Shown: piece by piece, positions 35,295 through 47,366 of the stretch
Layout of the letters: each line of letters opens with the position of its first letter
Numbering within the stretch: position 1 is the stretch's first letter
NCBI RefSeq assembly: GCF_030944625.1
Contig: NZ_JAUSXY010000001.1
Coordinates: 3,534,001-3,598,000, forward strand
Direction: 5' to 3'
DNA: 64,000 nucleotides
Source of the DNA: Arthrobacter sp. SLBN-112
Lineage (GTDB): Bacteria; Actinomycetota; Actinomycetes; Actinomycetales; Micrococcaceae
Program-made: the position numbers and the translations under genes
Notes under the pieces: generated by a model
Databases searched by the model: none
Told to the model about the DNA's origin: nothing
The model's input: the letters and a program-made list of their open reading frames with translations, nothing else

Positions 35295-37540
<2,246 letters not shown>

Positions 37541-37648: not shown

Positions 37649-38614
37649 ATGACGCACGCAATCGTCGCACGGCAGGCAGGCGGACCGGAAGTCCTTGAAT
37701 ATGCCGGGGTTGAGCCTCCCACACCCGGCCCGGGGCAGCTGCTGTTCAAAGTGGGCGCAGCCGGCGTTAATTTCATCGATACCTACAAGCGAAGCGGCGT
37801 CTACAAGGTGCAGTATCCCTTCACCCCGGGATCTGAGGCGGCGGGCACGGTGGAGGCGGTGGGTGAAGGGGTCACCGGATTCGCGGCCGGCGACCGGATT
37901 GCCACGGCCGAAGGCATCAACTGCTACGCGGATTACGCGCTGGTGGATGAAGACGCCGCCCTGCCGGTACCGCGGGGCCTGGATGTCTTTACCGCCGCGG
38001 CGCTTCCCCTGCAGGGCATCACGGCCCATTACCTGATGAACTCCACCTTCAAGGTGGAAGCCGGCCACAAGGTCCTGCTCCACGCCGGCGCCGGGGGTGT
38101 TGGACTGCTGCTGATCCAGCTGCTCAAGGCCCGGGGTGCGGAGGTGTTCACCACGGTGTCCACGGACGGGAAGGAAGAATTGGCGCGCAATGCCGGCGCA
38201 GACCACGTGCTGCGGTACGACGGGTTCGCGGAACGCGTCCGGGACATCACGAGCGGCACCGGCGTGGACGTGGTGTACGACGGCGTGGGCAAGGACACCT
38301 TCGACGGTTCCCTCGCCGCCTTGCGCGTCAGGGGCATGCTGGTGTTGTTCGGTGCCGCATCGGGCCCCGTCCCGCCGTTCGACCCGCAGCGCCTCAACGC
38401 CGCAGGCTCCTTGTTCCTGACCCGCCCCACCATGGGCCACTACCTCCGGGACGCCTCGGAGCGGCGCTGGCGCTCGGACGAGGTATTCGCCGCGGCAGCG
38501 GATGGCAGCTTGAAGGTCCGGATCGGCGCCCGCTACCCGTTGTCGCAGGCAGCACTCGCGCACCGCGACCTTGAGGGCAGGAAGACCACCGGAAAAGTGG
38601 TCCTGGTTCCGTAG
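37649..38614 (+). CDS. zinc-free quinone oxidoreductase (MDR family)
   Basis: This 321-residue NADPH:quinone-reductase-like enzyme has the GroES-like N-terminal domain (GVNFIDTYKRSGVY is the Qor signature) and a Rossmann fold with HAGAGGVGLLLIQLLKA. It lacks the zinc-binding Cys/His set of alcohol dehydrogenases. It probably reduces quinones to semiquinones or quinols. The ATG is preceded by AAAGGAG. It is divergent from argC and ends at a hairpin, so it seems to be its own unit. Confidence 0.88.
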   Translation: MTHAIVARQAGGPEVLEYAGVEPPTPGPGQLLFKVGAAGVNFIDTYKRSGVYKVQYPFTPGSEAAGTVEAVGEGVTGFAAGDRIATAEGINCYADYALVDEDAALPVPRGLDVFTAAALPLQGITAHYLMNSTFKVEAGHKVLLHAGAGGVGLLLIQLLKARGAEVFTTVSTDGKEELARNAGADHVLRYDGFAERVRDITSGTGVDVVYDGVGKDTFDGSLAALRVRGMLVLFGAASGPVPPFDPQRLNAAGSLFLTRPTMGHYLRDASERRWRSDEVFAAAADGSLKVRIGARYPLSQAALAHRDLEGRKTTGKVVLVP

Positions 38615-38717: not shown

Positions 38718-41700
38718 GTGACCCAGCAGCAGGTCCCCTTCGGGGATGACCATCCCGGTGCAGCGCCGGCCAGCACCGTCCGCCAGGAGCCTGCGGCCTC
38801 CGCAGGCGACCCGCCGGCAGAAGACCCCGTCCACGGCCTTGGCGTCTACGCGCCCCAGCTGCCCGGGGCCGCGGCTGCGCCCCCGGCCCGGACGCTGATC
38901 GATGTCCTGCGGGACACTGCGGCCCGTTTTCCCGACGCCTCGGCCCTGGACGACGGCCGTACTTCGCTCAGCTACGCCCAGCTGCTGGATGCTGTCCGTG
39001 CCACCGGCCGCCGCCTGCACCAGGCCGGGTTGGGCGCCGGGGACAGGATTGGCATCCGGATCCCCTCCGGCACCAACGAACTGTACGTTTCCATCCTCGC
39101 CGTGCTCCTGGTGGGAGCCGCGTATGTCCCCGTGGACGCCGATGATCCCGAGGAACGTGCGCGGCTGGTGTTCGGCGAGGCCAACGTGGCAGCCGTCCTG
39201 GGGGCGGGCGGTTCGATCGAACAGGGGCCGGCCGGGCGGGGCTGCAGCGGACCGTTCAAGGGCGCGCGGCCCCCCGAACGTGGCGACGACGCCTGGATCA
39301 TCTTCACCTCCGGTTCCACCGGAACACCCAAGGGCGTGGCCGTCCGGCACCGGTCCGCGGCAGCTTTCGTGGATGCGGAGGCCAGGATTTTCCTCCAGGA
39401 CGATCCCCTCGGCCCGCAGGACCGGGTCCTGGCCGGGCTTTCGGTCGCCTTCGACGCTTCCTGTGAGGAAATGTGGCTCGCCTGGCGGCACGGTGCCTGC
39501 CTGGTGCCGGCACCGCGCGCCCTGGTCCGGACCGGCATGGACCTCGGGCCATGGCTGATCAACCACGGCATCACCGCCGTTTCCACCGTGCCCACGCTCG
39601 CCGCACTGTGGCCCGCGGAGTCGCTGGAGAACGTCCGGCTGCTGATTTTCGGCGGCGAGGCCTGCCCGCCCGAACTCGCCGAGCGCCTGGCGGTGGAAGG
39701 CCGTGAAGTCTGGAATACCTATGGCCCAACGGAGGCAACGGTCGTGGCCTGCGCAGCACCCCTGGGTGCACCCGGCCCCGTACGGATCGGGCTGCCGCTG
39801 GACGGCTGGGACCTGGCCATCGTTGACGGGAACGCGGTACCGGTAGCCGAAGGCGGAGTGGGCGAACTCATCATCGGCGGCGTTGGCCTGGCCCGCTACC
39901 TCGATCCCGCCAAGGACGCGGAGAAGTACGCCCCCATGCCCAGCCTGGGGTGGGACCGGGCGTACCGTTCCGGTGACCTGGTGCGCTTCGAGCAGGCCGG
40001 CCTGATCTTCCAGGGCCGGGCAGACGAACAGGTAAAGCTCGGCGGCCGCAGGATTGAGCTGGGCGAGATCGACGCGGCCCTCCAGTCCCTTCCCGGCGTG
40101 GCCGGTGGTGCCGCCGCGGTCCAGACCACAGCCGCCGGAAACCAGGTCCTGGTGGGCTACCTGGCGCCCGCCGCCGGGGTGGCCCTCGACCTTTCGGTTG
40201 CCCGTGAGCAGCTGACGGCGAGCCTCCCGGCCCCCTTGGTTCCCATGCTCACCGTGGTGGATTCCCTGCCGACCAAGACCAGCGGCAAAGTAAACCGGCA
40301 CGACCTCCCGTGGCCCCTGGCCGGTTCAGGCGCCGCGGAGGCAAATGCCGCACCCCTGAACATCCCGGACGACGCCGCCTGGATCGTGGAGCAATGGAGC
40401 AACGTACTGGGCAGCCCCGTCACATCGCTGGACGCCGATTTCTTCGCGTACGGCGGCGGTTCACTCTCGGCCGCGCAGCTGGTCTCGGCCCTGCGGGTGC
40501 GCTACCCCACCATCACCGTGGCCGACATCTACGCCACGCCGCGCATTGGCGCCCTGGTGGAAGTGGCACGCCAGTCCAGTCCCAGCGGCTCCGCCGGCCC
40601 GGCACCGGAGCGCACCGTGCGACCCACGGCCAGGAAGTCGCAGGTCTTCCAGACCCTGATGGGTGTGCCGCTGCACATCCTGGTGGGCATGCGGTGGCTG
40701 ACCTACCTCATGGCCCTGAACAACCTGTTGGCCGGGATTGCCGGTTTCACTGCCGCGCCCACCGTCTCGTGGTGGTGGGTGGCGGCGTCCTGGCTGGTGT
40801 TCGTCAGCCCGGCCGGGCGGATGCTGCTGGCCATCGCGGCCGCCCGGTTCCTGCTCCGCGGGGTGGAACCGGGCATCTATCCCCGGTCCGGGCGCGTCCA
40901 CCTGCGGTTGTGGCTCGCGGAACAGATCCAGGACCTCGCCGGTGCCATCAGCCTCGCCAGTGCGCCCTGGGTGCCGTATTACGCCCGGGCGCTGGGGGCA
41001 AAGATCGGAAGGGACGTCCAGCTGCATTCGCTGCCACCCGTCACAGGGATGCTGACGCTGGGCAGCGGAGCCAACGTTGAACCCGAAGTGGACCTTTCGG
41101 GCTGGTGGATCGACGGCGACGACGTCCACATTGGGGCCATCCGCATTGGCCGCGGCGCCAGCGTGGGTGCCCGCAGCACACTGATGCCCGGCGCCTCGAT
41201 CGGGGCCGGGGCGCAGGTGGAAGCCGGCTCGGCGGTCCTGGGGAAGGTCAAGGCAGGCCAGCTGGCGGCAGGGTCACCGGCCCGCCGGCAGGGCAAGGCC
41301 AGGCACAGCGTGCCTGATGCCCCGGCCCAGGGCAGGTTTGCCGCACGGGCCTGGTTCGTCGGCTTTGCGCTGGCTTCGGCGTGCCTGTCCATCATCCCGT
41401 ACCTGTCTGCGGCTGCCGCTCTATGGGTCGCGTTCGCCTTCATCCAGGGCAGTACGTCGCTGACCGAAGCTCTCCCCCGGCTGTTGCCGGCCCTTGCCCC
41501 GGCATCGCTGGTGTGGTTTGCCACGAACGCCGTCCTGGTGCTGGCCGCCACGCGCCTGCTCTCCGTCGGGATCGCGGAGGGCTACTACCGGATCCGCAGC
41601 CGGGTGGGGTGGCAGATCTGGGCCACCGAGCGGGTGCTGGACCTGGCCAGGGACCTGCTTTTCCCCATTTACGCGAGCTTGTTCACACCCGTGTGGCTCC

Positions 41701-42764
41701 GACTGCTGGGCGCGAAGGTCGGAAAGAACGTCGAGGCCTCCACCGTGCTGCTGATACCGAAGATGACCACCGTGGGCGAGGGCGCCTTCCTCGCCGATGA
41801 CACCATGGTGGCCTCTTACGAGCTCGACGGCGGCTGGTTGCGGGTGGCACCGGCAAAGATCGGCAAGCGGTCCTTCCTCGGCAATTCCGGGATGACTGCC
41901 GCCGGCCGCAACGTCCCCAAGAACTCCCTGGTGGCCGTCCTGTCCGCGACGCCGGCAAAAGCCAAGGCGGGCACCTCCTGGCTGGGGAGCCCGCCGGTCC
42001 GGCTGCGGCGGACCGCGATTGCATCCGACGGTTCCCGCACCTTCCAGCCCCCGAAACGGCTGAAGGTGGCACGTACCCTGTGGGAGCTGTGCCGGTTCCT
42101 GCCGGTGATGCTCACGGTCGCCATTGCGGCCGGCACCATGCTGGCCTTCGACTGGATCGCAGCGACCCTGGGCTACGCCGCCGCGGCCCTGCTCACCGGC
42201 GTCGTGATGCTGCTGGCGGGGCTGGTGGCCGCAGCCGCGTCCGTCGTCGCCAAATGGATCCTGGTGGGCCGGATCCGCCCCGGCGAGCACCCGCTCTGGA
42301 GCTCGTTCATCTGGCGCAACGAAGTGGTGGACAGCTTCATCGAACTGGTCTCCGCACCGTGGTTTGCGCGGGCGGCTTCGGGAACACCGGCGCTGGTCTG
42401 GTGGCTGCGTGCGCTCGGAGCGAAGATCGGCAGCGGCACATGGTGCGAAAGCTACTGGCTGCCCGAGGCCGACCTCGTGACGCTCGGCCGGAACTCCACC
42501 GTGAATCGGGGCTGCGTGGTGCAGACGCACCTGTTCCACGACCGCGTGATGAGCATCGACGCTGTTACGCTCGAGGACGGGGCCACCATGGGCCCGCACG
42601 GGGTCATCCTTCCCCAGGCCAGCATCGGCGCCGGCGGAACAGTGGGGCCGGCTTCCCTGGTGATGCGCGGCGAAGCAGTTCCCGCCGCGACGTACTGGAT
42701 GGGCAACCCCGTCAGTCCGTGGAGCGGCCCCGGATCGCCGCCTGCTAACCGAAGGTCCCCATGA
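38718..42764 (+). CDS. membrane-bound NRPS-like synthetase, epsilon-poly-L-lysine synthetase (Pls) architecture
   Basis: This 1348-residue protein starts with an adenylation domain (about 50-540): [11 protein letters not shown] near 198, [18 protein letters not shown], and the catalytic lysine in [10 protein letters not shown] carrier domain (about 550-630) has Ser582 in YGGGSLSA for phosphopantetheine. Three repeats of two membrane segments plus a soluble left-handed-helix-like domain follow, with membrane pairs near 655-712, 876-950 and 1127-1180. This is the layout of Pls, which polymerises lysine through side-chain amines. By eye against GrsA the pocket reads D-A-E-S-I-G-T-V-V-K; the acidic E could suit a basic amino acid, which is inference. 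The start is GTG; the M1 peptidase gene overlaps by ATGA. Confidence 0.85.
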
Positions 42765-44122
42765 GTTCTTCAGCATCAGCCGCCCGCGGCAGCGTCTACG
42801 AGGCCGGTGGCGCTGCCCCTGATCCGTACCTGCCCGGCGCCGGGACCGACGCCTTCCGGGTGGAGCGGTACGAACTGGACCTGGATTACCGGGTGGCCAG
42901 CAACCGGCTCAGCGGCAGGGCGGTGCTGCACGGCGTCACGTGCGTCCCGGCGTCGGCCATTGTGCTGGACCTTGCCGGGCTGCGCGCCACGAAAGTGCTG
43001 CTTGACGGCCGCAAGCCGTTGCGGTTCAGCCAGCGGGCAGGACAACTTGTGGTTTCGGCGCATAACACCTTCGAGGCCCGGCAGGCATTCACCCTGGAAG
43101 TGCGCTACGAAGGCAATCCGCGGCCTCGCCGCGGCCTGTGGGGTGAAGTGGGCTGGGAGGAACTGACGGACGGCGTCCTGGTGGCCGGGCAGCCCAACGG
43201 GGCGCCCTCATGGTTCCCGTGCAACGACCACCTCCGGGACAAAGCCAGCTACCGGTTCACGGTGACCACCGACGCGAACTACCGCGTGGTATGCAACGGC
43301 GTGCTGCAATCGCATACTGCCCGTTCCAGCCGCGAAACCTGGGTTTACGAACAGGCCGATCCCATGCCCGCCTACCTGGCCACCGTGCAGATCGGCCGTT
43401 ACGCGCTCCTGGAACTGGACAGCGGACGGCACGGCACCCCCGTTCCGCAGACCGTGGCCGTCCCCCACGCACTCACGGACCGGGCACGTTCCGGCCTGGC
43501 ACTCCAGCCGGCAATGATGCGCACGTTCAGCAGTTGCTTTGGCCCCTACCCTTTTCCGGGGTACATCGTGGTGGTCACCGAGGACGAACTGGAAATCCCG
43601 CTTGAGGCGCAGGCCATGTCCATCTTTGGCCCCAACCACCTGGGCCTGGACTGGGAGTCCCAGCGCCTGATCGCCCATGAGCTCTCACACCAGTGGTTTG
43701 GCAATGCCCTGACGGCGGCCAGCTGGCAGGACATCTGGTTGCACGAGGGCTTCGCCTGCTACGCCGAATGGATCTGGTCCGAGGAAGCCGGCGTCATGAC
43801 CGTGGCGGAGCGGGCCGAGGCTGCCTGGCGCCGGCTGGCCGCCGAAGAACAGGACATCCTGGTGGGAGACCCCGGCCCCGAACGCATGTTCGATGACCGC
43901 GTCTACAAACGGGGCGCGCTGGCTGTCCATGCCGTCCGGATGGCCGTGGGCGACCTCGCCTTCTTCGCCGTCCTGCAGGACTGGACCGCCAGCCACCGGC
44001 ATGGCTCGGTCACCACGCAGGACTTCATCATGGCGGTCAGCCGGACAACAGCCGTTGATGCCGAATCCCTGCTGCACCCTTGGCTCTACGAGGAGCCGCT
44101 GCCGCCGCTGCCCGCGTCCTGA
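42761..44122 (+). CDS. M1-family zinc metallopeptidase, coupled to the synthetase
   Basis: This 453-residue aminopeptidase-like protein has the zinc site HELSH at 306-310 and the third ligand Glu329 ([13 protein letters not shown]). The usual GAMEN-type loop is replaced by [10 protein letters not shown], as in some short actinobacterial M1 enzymes. It ends soon after the catalytic Tyr region ([13 protein letters not shown]), lacking the large C-terminal domain of PepN. No signal peptide is evident. Its ATG overlaps the synthetase stop (ATGA). As I recall, epsilon-polylysine producers carry a zinc aminopeptidase that degrades the polymer, so a trimming or self-protection role is possible but inferred. 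Confidence 0.88.
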
Positions 44123-44791
44123 CCAGGCCCGGAAAGCGCGACGGCGGCAGCAAGGTGGGCGGGCAGCCCGGTTTCCGCGGGGCCAAGGTCGCGCAGGCCG
44201 GCACATTCCAGGACGTCCACGGAAGACGGCGCGGTCCTGAGTCCCTCACCGGTCATCTTCAGCCAGGCTTCCTTACGGGCCCAGAGCCTGGCCCTTGCGG
44301 CGGGCAGGAGATCCGCCGTGAGGTCCCGGAGGGCCAGCCGCTCCGCGGGTGCCAGCGCCAGGGCGTCGAACCCGTCGAAACCGGTGCGGGAAGGGTCCTC
44401 GATGTCAATTCCGAGACGGGTTTCCGGGGCCGCGTCCACCACAGCAGCCAGCAGCGTCCAGCCGCCGGCCCGGGACAGGCTCAGGGCCATCGGCAAGGGA
44501 GCGCCCCGATAGGTGTATCCCGGCCGGCCGTGGCCCAGCTCCGGGCCCGGCACCGCAGCGCGGGCAGCCGTAGGCCGCGGCGAGGTCCGCTGCGGACACC
44601 GACATCAGTTCGGCTGCGAAGACCCGTTGGGCCACCCGCCCGGCCAGGAAGACTGTCCCGGCGGCAGGCTCCATAGCCTTGGCCCGCGCCAGCTCGACGC
44701 CGTCCAGGAGGCGTTCCGCGTCGCTTCGCACCGCGGCGGCTTCCCCAGGCAGCACGAAGGGCGGGACTGCACGCATTTCTTGTTGCGTCAT
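44086..44791 (-). pseudogene. Sfp-type 4'-phosphopantetheinyl transferase, split by one base
   Basis: The N-terminal part (MTQQEMRAVPPFVLPGE to AAYGCPRCGAG) and the C-terminal part (PELGHGRPGYTYRG to the stop at 44086) are in different frames. Removing one base of the GGGCCC near 44545-44551 joins them smoothly. Family residues are then complete: GIDIED (Mg-binding) and WARKEAWLKMTGEGL. Such enzymes attach phosphopantetheine to carrier domains like Ser582 of the adjacent synthetase. The 3' end overlaps the M1 peptidase gene by 37 bases, tail to tail. It is either a recent lesion or an error in the sequence; I favour the latter because prpB and hisC show the same kind of single extra base. Confidence 0.82.
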
Positions 44792-44822: not shown

Positions 44823-47366
44823 CTAGCGCTGCACGGCTCCGAAGCGTTCCGCGGCCAGGGCCACGGCGCTTTCGCGCGCGGCCGAGGCTTCGTCCGCGGT
44901 CAAGGTGCGGTCCGCGGCACGGAACCGGAGCCCGAAGGCCAGCGACTTCTTGCCGTCCTCAATACCCTTGCCGGCGTAGACGTCGAACAGGGCGACGTCC
45001 TCCAGCAGCTCGCCGGCACCTTCACGCAGGGCGGCGAGGACCTCGTCCGCCGGGACGTCGGCCGGGACCACGAGCGCCACGTCCTGGGTGGCCACCGGGA
45101 AGGTGGAAATGTGGCGGGCCACGATCACGTCCGGTGCGGCTTCGAACAGGGCGTCGGCATTGAGTTCCAGCGCCACTGAACGGGCCGGCATGTCCGAGGC
45201 TGCCAGCAGCTTGGGGTGCAGCTCACCGGCGTAGCCCACCACTTCCCCGGTGCGCAGCGCGAGCCGGGCCGTGCGGCCCGGATGAAACGCCTGGTGGCTG
45301 CCCTGGCTGACCACCAGGTCAACGCCAAGGATGTCCCCCGCAAGGCGGGCAACATCCAGCGCATCCGCCCAATCCCACACCCGAGGGGTATGGGCAGCAG
45401 CAGCCGGAGAGTCATGGCCAGTGAGGACCGCGGCGACGTGGAAGGGCTGGTCCGGGACGCCGTCGTACAGTGCATCGAGCACCTCATCGGCAGGCTTGGC
45501 GCCCAGCGGCGGGATGGACGCGGTGCCCATGGTTTCGCCCGGCAGGAACACCAGGCCCGATTCGAAGAGGGCAAGGTCGCGGAACCCGCGGGAGTGGTTC
45601 CGCTTGGCCACCTCGATCAGGCCGGGAAGGATCGAGGTCCGCAGGTAGCCCTGCTCCTCACTGATCGGGTTGGCCAGCTTGACGGCGCTCCGGGGTGCGC
45701 CTTCGTCGGCAGTACCGAAGGTGTCGTTGGCCGCCTTGGACACGAAGGGGTAGGACAGGACCTCGGTGAGGCCGGCATCCGCCATGGCCTGGATCAGGCG
45801 CCGGCGCTGCTGCTGGACGCGGGTGAGGCCGCGGCCGGGAGGGGCAACGGGCAGCGTGGCGGGGATCTTGTCGTATCCCACCAGCCGGGCGATTTCCTCG
45901 GTCAGGTCTTCCTTGGTTTCCAGGTCGCTGCGCCAGCTGGGCGGCGTAACGGTCCAGCCGGCGTCGTTCTTCACCACGATGGCGCCCAGGTCCTCAAGCG
46001 AGGTGACGATCTGCGCTTCGGTGAAATCGACCCCGATGCGGGCGGCGGCGAAGCCGGCCGGCAGCTCAATGGTGACGGTTTCCGGGGCGGTGCCGACGTC
46101 GGTTCCCGCCTCATCAGCGGTTCCTCCGGCCAGTTCCACCAGGAGGTCCACCACGCGCTGCGCAGCGATGCCCGCAACCTGCCAGTCGACGCCGCGCTCG
46201 AAGCGCTTGGACGCCTCGGACGGCAGCTTGTGCCGGCGCCGCGAACGTCCGATGGATACGTCGTCGAAGTGTGCCGCTTCGACCAGGACGTTCGACGTCG
46301 AACTGCTCACCTCGGTGGCGGCCCCGCCCATGACGCCCGCGATGCCGATGGCGCCGGAGTCATCGGTGATCAGGAGGTCCTCAACGTCAAGGGTGCGCTC
46401 CTTGCCGTCCAGGGTGGTGATCTTCTCCGCTGCCGCCGCGCGCCGCACCACGATGTCACCGGAGAGTTTGTCCAGGTCGTAGCAGTGCGTGGGCTGGCCC
46501 AGTTCGAGCATGACGTAGTTGGAGATATCCACCGGCAGCGAGATGGAGCGGATGCCCGCGAGCCGGAGCCGGGACACCATCCACAGCGGGGCGGGCTTGG
46601 TGGCGTCCACGCCGCGGACAGTCCGGGCCACGAAGCGGTCGCAGCCGGGCTTGCCGTAGATGGGGGCGTCGTCGTTGAGCTTGACGCCGTAGCCGCCGGA
46701 CAGCTCGGCCGGGGCGTTGACCTTCTCTGCGGGGTCCGTGAAGGCGGTACCGGTGGCGTGGGCGTACTCACGGGCCACACCACGGATGGAGAACGCATAG
46801 CCGCGGTCCGGGGTGACGTTGATTTCCGCAGCCTCGTCGTACAGGCCCAGCAGCTCCATGGCGTCCGTGCCCACTTCCGGGTCCAGACCGATGCGGGAGA
46901 GCACCAGGATGCCGTCGTGGTCGTCGCCGATGCCCAGTTCGCGGACGGATGCGATCATGCCGGCGGAGAGGTGTCCGTAGGTCTTGCGGGCGGAAATGTG
47001 GAAGTCTCCGGGCAGCACGGCTCCCGGCAGGGTGACCACCACTTTGTCGCCCTCAACGAAGTTATGGGCGCCGCAGATGATGCCTTGGACACCGGAGGGA
47101 TCAATGCCGTCTCCGGTGAGGGCCTGCTCCTGCCCCTCGGGGACAACGCGGACCTGGCACCAGTTGATGGTTTTGCCGTTGGTCTGGGGTTCCTTGACGA
47201 GGCTCAGGACCTGGCCCACCACGATGGGCCCCCGGAGGGTGTCCGTGGGGCGGTGGACCGCTTCCTCTTCGAAACCGACCTTGACCAGCTCTGCCATGAC
47301 GTCTTCGGCCGTTGCACCGGCCGGTACTGCCGCGAATTCACGCAGCCAGGAAAGTGGGATACGCAC
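44823..47366 (-). CDS. pheT: phenylalanyl-tRNA synthetase beta subunit
   Basis: This 847-residue subunit has the N-terminal tRNA-binding (EMAP-like) domain (about 40-160), the B3/B4 editing domain, the B5 domain and the C-terminal anticodon-binding FDX-ACB domain (HISTFPVATQDVALVV). The start is GTG at 47364-47366, giving VRIPLSWLREF, two bases after the pheS stop. The longer open frame upstream lies inside pheS and is rejected. It forms the alpha2-beta2 enzyme with PheS. Confidence 0.96.
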   Translation of the reverse strand: MRIPLSWLREFAAVPAGATAEDVMAELVKVGFEEEAVHRPTDTLRGPIVVGQVLSLVKEPQTNGKTINWCQVRVVPEGQEQALTGDGIDPSGVQGIICGAHNFVEGDKVVVTLPGAVLPGDFHISARKTYGHLSAGMIASVRELGIGDDHDGILVLSRIGLDPEVGTDAMELLGLYDEAAEINVTPDRGYAFSIRGVAREYAHATGTAFTDPAEKVNAPAELSGGYGVKLNDDAPIYGKPGCDRFVARTVRGVDATKPAPLWMVSRLRLAGIRSISLPVDISNYVMLELGQPTHCYDLDKLSGDIVVRRAAAAEKITTLDGKERTLDVEDLLITDDSGAIGIAGVMGGAATEVSSSTSNVLVEAAHFDDVSIGRSRRRHKLPSEASKRFERGVDWQVAGIAAQRVVDLLVELAGGTADEAGTDVGTAPETVTIELPAGFAAARIGVDFTEAQIVTSLEDLGAIVVKNDAGWTVTPPSWRSDLETKEDLTEEIARLVGYDKIPATLPVAPPGRGLTRVQQQRRRLIQAMADAGLTEVLSYPFVSKAANDTFGTADEGAPRSAVKLANPISEEQGYLRTSILPGLIEVAKRNHSRGFRDLALFESGLVFLPGETMGTASIPPLGAKPADEVLDALYDGVPDQPFHVAAVLTGHDSPAAAAHTPRVWDWADALDVARLAGDILGVDLVVSQGSHQAFHPGRTARLALRTGEVVGYAGELHPKLLAASDMPARSVALELNADALFEAAPDVIVARHISTFPVATQDVALVVPADVPADEVLAALREGAGELLEDVALFDVYAGKGIEDGKKSLAFGLRFRAADRTLTADEASAARESAVALAAERFGAVQR

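Follow-up and report, generated by a model that had tools for sequence, protein, structure and literature searches.

What does the Pls-like synthetase cassette of Arthrobacter sp. SLBN-112 make, and can it work in this strain? The cassette lies in a 64,000-nucleotide stretch of contig NZ_JAUSXY010000001.1 (the window). It consists of a long synthetase gene (pls), an overlapping gene for a short M1 zinc peptidase, and a convergent gene for a phosphopantetheinyl transferase (PPTase). We consider it very probable that this block is the genus version of the pls-pldII module together with a linked Sfp-type PPTase, and that its product is epsilon-poly-L-lysine. The basic pls-pldII system is already known, and the window holds an ordinary example of it. 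The parts that deserve follow-up are the all-or-none pattern of the three genes in the genus and the PPTase linkage, for which we found no report in the open-licence literature.

A first-pass annotation of the window had taken no such polymer to be established for this lineage. As a claim of novelty this was overstated, because Pls homologues from Arthrobacter, Micrococcus, Glutamicibacter, and others, with lysine as the predicted substrate, are described in Jiang 2021. The literature searched gave us no account of this lineage making the polymer.

The synthetase and its substrate pocket

The 1348-residue protein is predicted to be a Pls/PosA family synthetase. The NCBIfam Pls/PosA terminal domain (TIGR02353) covers residues 643 to 1332, from profile position 1 to 695 of 695, and scores 705.2 bits (cut-off, 423.1 bits). 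A Pfam scan at E 0.1 matched AMP-binding (residues 65 to 393), PP-binding (residues 555 to 615), and hexapeptide repeats, and it found no condensation or thioesterase domain. The attachment serine of the carrier domain is Ser582 (GGGSL), and serine occupies this position in 115/115 aligned sequences. These results bear out the earlier description of a Pls-type synthetase with adenylation and carrier domains and the carrier serine in GGGS. A longer reading frame could begin at a TTG at 38571; we use the GTG at 38718 as the candidate start.

Because TIGR02353 matches at full length, we rejected the possibility that the soluble domains have no relation to the C domains of Pls. We modeled residues 625 to 1348 with AlphaFold2 from 43 sequences; the model has a mean predicted local distance difference test score (pLDDT) of 89.2 and a predicted template modeling score (pTM) of 0.89. 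It consists of long helices and then a beta-rich domain, repeated three times. Foldseek aligned 43 chains to this model at E 0.001 or better. The top matches were serine, maltose, and galactoside O-acetyltransferases and 4ihh, an entry on acyl carrier protein and lipid A production. Their template modeling scores are low because single domains were aligned against a 724-residue model. On this model, the three tandem soluble domains are predicted to be of the beta-helix type and hexapeptide acyltransferase-like. The published model of PosA, the delta-poly-L-ornithine synthetase of Acinetobacter baumannii, has three left-handed beta-helices on six helices (PosA paper). In our hydropathy scan (window of 19, threshold of 1.5), five hydrophobic segments of the terminal region passed the threshold rather than the expected six, so a sixth membrane helix has no support from the scan. 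The three membrane-pair/soluble-domain repeats proposed at first therefore stand as repeats of helices and beta-rich domains in the model but not as six hydropathy segments. Five residues of the third repeat (W1199, E1202, Q1269, H1271, and D1275) are invariant in 115/115 sequences.

Among solved structures, the adenylation domain is closest to 7wew, an epsilon-poly-L-lysine synthase (E 4e-190, residues 50 to 535). We mapped the ten positions of the pocket by alignment and by the GrsA motif context; they read DAESIGTVVK in the window Pls, and the aligned residues of 7wew are identical. The same code is found in 109/115 aligned sequences, window included. The remaining codes were DAESIGTVIK in four sequences, which belong to a second Pls type, and DFECLSVVTK in two, which belong to a third. 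The PosA paper ties pocket position 2 to the chain length of the substrate, with alanine there in lysine enzymes. A. baumannii PosA belongs to the same family, but its pocket is of the ornithine type and at position 2 has methionine (PosA paper), not the alanine of the window Pls. The same pocket argument led to the prediction of lysine for the coryneform homologues (Jiang 2021).

The window pocket is therefore predicted to be lysine-type, and a non-lysine substrate was rejected on its code. The first-pass annotation had called the product unknown. This was too pessimistic because the pocket matches that of lysine-activating Pls enzymes. We think it quite improbable that the product is some other isopeptide polymer or a conjugate rather than plain epsilon-polylysine. 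Several diamino acids are used by Pls/PosA enzymes and unusual pocket codes occur (PosA paper), but the window pocket equals that of the lysine enzymes, down to the alanine that goes with the chain length of lysine.

The overlapping M1 peptidase

The gene after pls encodes a short M1 zinc peptidase with the zinc motif HELSH-x18-E at residues 306 to 329. The earlier report of such a peptidase overlapping pls by ATGA was correct, both in the overlap (42761 to 42764) and in the motif (HExxH-x18-E). We compared the pair with 80 named loci from relatives; these rank highest among at least 595 and so are biased towards close relatives. An HExxH-type zinc motif is present in 80/80 of their M1 proteins. 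Measured from the pls stop, the M1 match begins at -10 to +300 nt in 75/80, at -22 in one, and at 625 to 2166 nt in four. In 39/80, a possible M1 start codon shares 4 nt (21 loci) or 1 nt (18 loci) with the pls stop. The closest solved relative of the M1 protein is 6a8z (474-aa chain; residues 12 to 451 aligned; E 4e-48). Like the window protein, this short M1 zinc metalloprotease (6a8z/6iff), which we take to be from Deinococcus, has a short chain and the zinc motif, but at that E value it is distant. We know of no link between it and polymer synthesis.

The window pair appears from its genes to be the published pls-pldII pair. In Streptomyces albulus, pldII is 1404 bp long, and its translation is stated to be coupled to that of pls (PMC9223678). 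The window shares with the S. albulus genes the adenylation-carrier-terminal region architecture, the lysine pocket, and an adjacent peptidase gene of similar size. Unlike them, it has a convergent PPTase gene and an oxidoreductase-like/pheT setting that is common within the genus sampled. A pls-peptidase operon is also described for Streptomyces and Corynebacterium (Jiang 2021). The homologue of Corynebacterium variabile, likewise a coryneform actinobacterial Pls whose gene shares an operon with a peptidase gene, gave epsilon-polylysine in Streptomyces coelicolor when placed behind an S. albulus promoter. It comes from a different genus, and the results and discussion of that paper do not mention PPTase linkage (Jiang 2021). 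An M1 gene also follows a Streptomyces Pls gene in one of our loci (L150), and its product is 42% identical to the window M1. L150 and a second locus, L151, are the two with a downstream M1 among the four plasmid-borne Pls loci that we fetched.

The first-pass annotation had called the peptidase a trimming enzyme. This is doubtful because inactivation of Pld and PldII left both production and the degree of polymerization unchanged, according to a review (PMC8506220), and a self-protection function has been postulated for the peptidase (Jiang 2021).

The convergent PPTase and its broken frame

We searched 150 genus genomes, drawn from a larger group, with the Pls protein (E 1e-100), the window M1 protein (E 1e-60), and the PPTase of a related locus, L009 (E 1e-5). 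The three presence sets were identical: 123 genomes match all three queries, and the other 27 match none. This is the co-occurrence that the first-pass annotation had proposed to look for. It had also named two findings that would overturn it, namely, a lack of relationship between the soluble domains and those of Pls, and a peptidase and transferase that do not accompany the synthetase in related genomes. Within the genus, we found neither. TIGR02353 over its cut-off was also found in 123/150 genomes, with weak matches below the cut-off in 150/150. Since the protein query gave 123/150 as well, we rejected the idea that the co-occurrence is an artefact of the family model. The PPTase-family model PF01648 has a single match in 25 of the 27 Pls-negative genomes, none in G119 (63% complete), and two in G100.

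Positions were tallied with one match per genome. Genes for Pls that are split (in G030, G053, G103, G132, and G141) were placed by one piece, and for G062 we used the second-best M1 match, which is beside the best Pls. Judged by lower match coordinates, Pls and M1 are at most 6.5 kb apart in 120/123 genomes, and M1 and the best PPTase match at most 4 kb apart in 112/123. A broader, order-level sample had Pls in 58/198 genomes and 25/72 genera (E 1e-150). The sampled distribution of a pathway to a food-preservative polymer now extends to 123/150 genomes of one genus.

Three of the 123 genomes (G018, G073, and G095) have M1 and the PPTase in place but no full pls beside them. Only pieces from both ends of pls match in G095, and no pls remnant matches beside M1 in G018 or G073, the latter a fragmented genome that is 83% complete. 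All three have another Pls elsewhere (48 to 50% identity) with a lysine pocket, and the fetched stretches around it contain no M1 match. This pattern fits M1 and the PPTase serving the second Pls, although three cases are few. These genomes offer a natural experiment for working out what accessory genes a Pls depends on.

Is the PPTase a partner of Pls or a bystander? It faces the pls operon and so is not part of it. Among the named loci, some of which (such as L010) end too early to show one, a convergent PPTase lies within 3.5 kb of M1 in 28/80, and most of those examined that are more distant appear to lack the linkage. These observations could mean that the PPTase is an unrelated neighbor that merely happens to sit between the pls operon and pheT, and the second PF01648 match in G100, a genome without Pls, points the same way. 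However, none of the 27 Pls-negative genomes has a match to the window-type PPTase at E 1e-5, and the 11 genomes in which the best PPTase match is unlinked are all Pls-positive. The window genome (G000) has three PF00550 matches, and the two besides Pls are in short frames (191 and 113 aa). We therefore regard the bystander explanation as unlikely. A stronger proposal gives the PPTase of this genus a dedicated place as third member of the module, kept and lost with it, needed for Pls activation, and acting as an on/off switch. It is possible but rather doubtful. If it were true, breakage of the PPTase would silence polymer synthesis and leave the self-protection peptidase behind. The need for a matching PPTase might also partly explain why a coryneform pls gave no polymer in Corynebacterium glutamicum, for which the published suggestion is other causes, such as promoter choice.

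The window PPTase itself is broken in this assembly. Its stretch (44086 to 44791) is 706 nt long, which is not a multiple of three, and the gene is read in two frames, the second of which overlaps the 3' end of M1 tail to tail. The tail-to-tail Sfp-type transferase noted at first is thus present, convergent, and equipped with an ACPS domain, yet it is not one reading frame of ~230 aa. Over the matching region, the PPTase is intact in a single frame in seven relatives and in G109, which is the nearest relative by Pls identity (95%). The window genome has only one other PF01648 match, and its 137-aa frame is of AcpS size and looks like AcpS. The cassette was described as a self-sufficient unit, which goes too far for this strain because the PPTase frame is broken and the sole other PPTase match looks like AcpS. 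If the frameshift is real, Pls may stay in its inactive apo form.

We give a little less than an even chance to the explanation that the living strain has an intact cassette and can produce epsilon-polylysine, the frameshift being an error made in assembling a GC-rich stretch. Indel errors can occur in assemblies, the PPTase of G109 is in one open frame, pls and M1 are open in the window, and split Pls or PPTase matches occur in other sampled genomes. However, the assembly is not full of errors. In a comparison with G109 over ~40 kb, 8/45 of the open reading frame matches listed were in more than one frame, and by our reading the PPTase switch alone falls inside a gene. We examined four of the other seven switches; a start codon is possible at or after each of them, and they look like upstream extensions. 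On this comparison, we rejected a generally frameshift-ridden window. Among the sampled genomes, Pls matches are also split into pieces or frames in G030, G053, G081, G103, G132, and G141, and PPTase matches in G030, G130, and G132. Therefore, broken copies or assembly errors of the module are not confined to the window.

Taken as a pls-pldII module with a linked PPTase, the block could work as follows. The adenylation domain of Pls would activate L-lysine, which would be held as a thioester on the Pls carrier. The membrane-anchored, acyltransferase-like terminal region would join lysines through the epsilon-amino group to give epsilon-poly-L-lysine. The coupled, PldII-type M1 peptidase would hydrolyze the polymer, for protection or recycling rather than to set chain length. 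The neighboring PPTase would normally turn the Pls carrier into its active holo form; with the frameshift, either the module would be silent here or the frameshift would be a sequencing error. Carrier activation offers a concrete, testable reason why such genes may be silent. What the sequences show directly is the domains, the pocket residues, the overlap of the two genes, the co-occurrence, and the frameshift as assembled; the polymer and its bond, the role of the peptidase, the pairing of the PPTase with Pls, and the silence are inferred from them.

Several observations weigh against this overall reading. The PPTase is frameshifted, as described above. In 11/123 genomes, the top PPTase match falls outside the 4-kb limit from M1, although a contig break may be the cause in G081 and G130. 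Some PPTase matches are distant, and that of G092 is distant at best (6.6e-10). One Pls-negative genome, G100, has a second PF01648 match (G100:C12:86621-86917), which is in a 231-aa frame. Because the three genes are neighbors and the genomes are related, the 123 genomes are not independent events, joint losses may be single deletions, and a Fisher value for the co-occurrence is no true probability. The window M1 is a putative orthologue of S. albulus PldII, judged from synteny (L150), and the fetched stretches of two plasmid loci, L152 and L153, have no M1 match. The experiments described in Jiang 2021 found no polymer from C. variabile in culture or from C. glutamicum carrying its gene.

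Locus borders and other Pls/PosA types

The block was placed between argC and pheT by the first-pass annotation. Both genes flank it, but a quinone-oxidoreductase-like gene stands between argC and pls and is the conserved left border (Table 1). The named close relatives are Pseudarthrobacter and Arthrobacter. In the 20 of 27 Pls-negative genomes that we fetched, the oxidoreductase-like gene and pheT adjoin without the cassette. The gap between match ends is 79 to 133 bp in 16 of these and 865 to 1647 bp, with other DNA, in four.

Table 1. Features of the pls locus, in window coordinates
Feature	Position	Strand	Basis
argC	36461..37489	-	Name from sequence reading
Quinone-oxidoreductase-like gene, conserved left border	37649..38614	+	Name from sequence reading, not family search
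pls-like gene	38718..42764	+	GTG-started open reading frame, 1348 aa; TIGR02353, 705 bits
Adenylation domain, ~residues 58-530	38889..40307	+	PF00501, 7wew match, pocket code
Carrier (thiolation) domain, residues 555-615	40380..40562	+	PF00550, Ser582 in GGGSL
Pls/PosA terminal polymerization region, residues 643-1332	40644..42713	+	TIGR02353, AlphaFold2, Foldseek
ATGA overlap, pls stop/M1 start	42761..42764	+	Candidate translational coupling
Short M1 zinc peptidase, 453 aa, PldII-like	42761..44122	+	PF17900 and PF01433, zinc motif
PPTase C-terminal part with ACPS domain, second frame	44086..44553	-	PF01648, 43.9 bits; frame switch versus intact relatives
PPTase N-terminal part, first frame	44519..44791	-	Matches N-terminal parts of relatives' PPTases
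pheT, conserved right border	44823..47366	-	Name from sequence reading

Other Pls/PosA types were met in relatives. The second lysine-type Pls (DAESIGTVIK; 48 to 50% identity) is found at L124, L125, L126, and L127, in G018, G095, G073, and G044, respectively. The fetched stretches of these four loci have no M1 match; that of L126 ends at a contig end. A third type, with 30 to 32% identity, is present at L091 and L092 (in G076 and G014) and in ten further genomes. The two aligned members, L091 and L092, have the code DFECLSVVTK, with phenylalanine at position 2, which is reported for diaminopropionate and diaminobutyrate enzymes (PosA paper).

A different arrangement occurs at L162:7135-10380 (G117) and L161:7408-10539 (G061), where three tandem carriers, and no adenylation domain, precede a Pls/PosA terminal domain. 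Three PF00550 stretches are present in each, and the L162 protein scores 668 bits with TIGR02353. It is encoded between an SbnA-family gene and a gene for a separate adenylation-carrier protein, with TauD-like and SbnB-family genes beyond. The L161 gene lies between a PALP-family gene and a gene for a similar adenylation-carrier protein. By eye, the same carrier-terminal architecture is present at L155 and L159 (both in G089) and L158 (G140). Loci of the L161/L162 type look like a split, in-trans system for a diaminopropionate polymer. A literature search on tandem carriers gave no papers, and we saw no split carrier-terminal system in the window's genome.

Finally, 33 plasmid records contain a match to a Pls-type gene; their hosts include Rhodococcus, Mycobacterium avium, and Nocardia. 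L152 is on pROB01 of Rhodococcus opacus B4, and L153 is on pKVP2 of Streptomyces viridifaciens.

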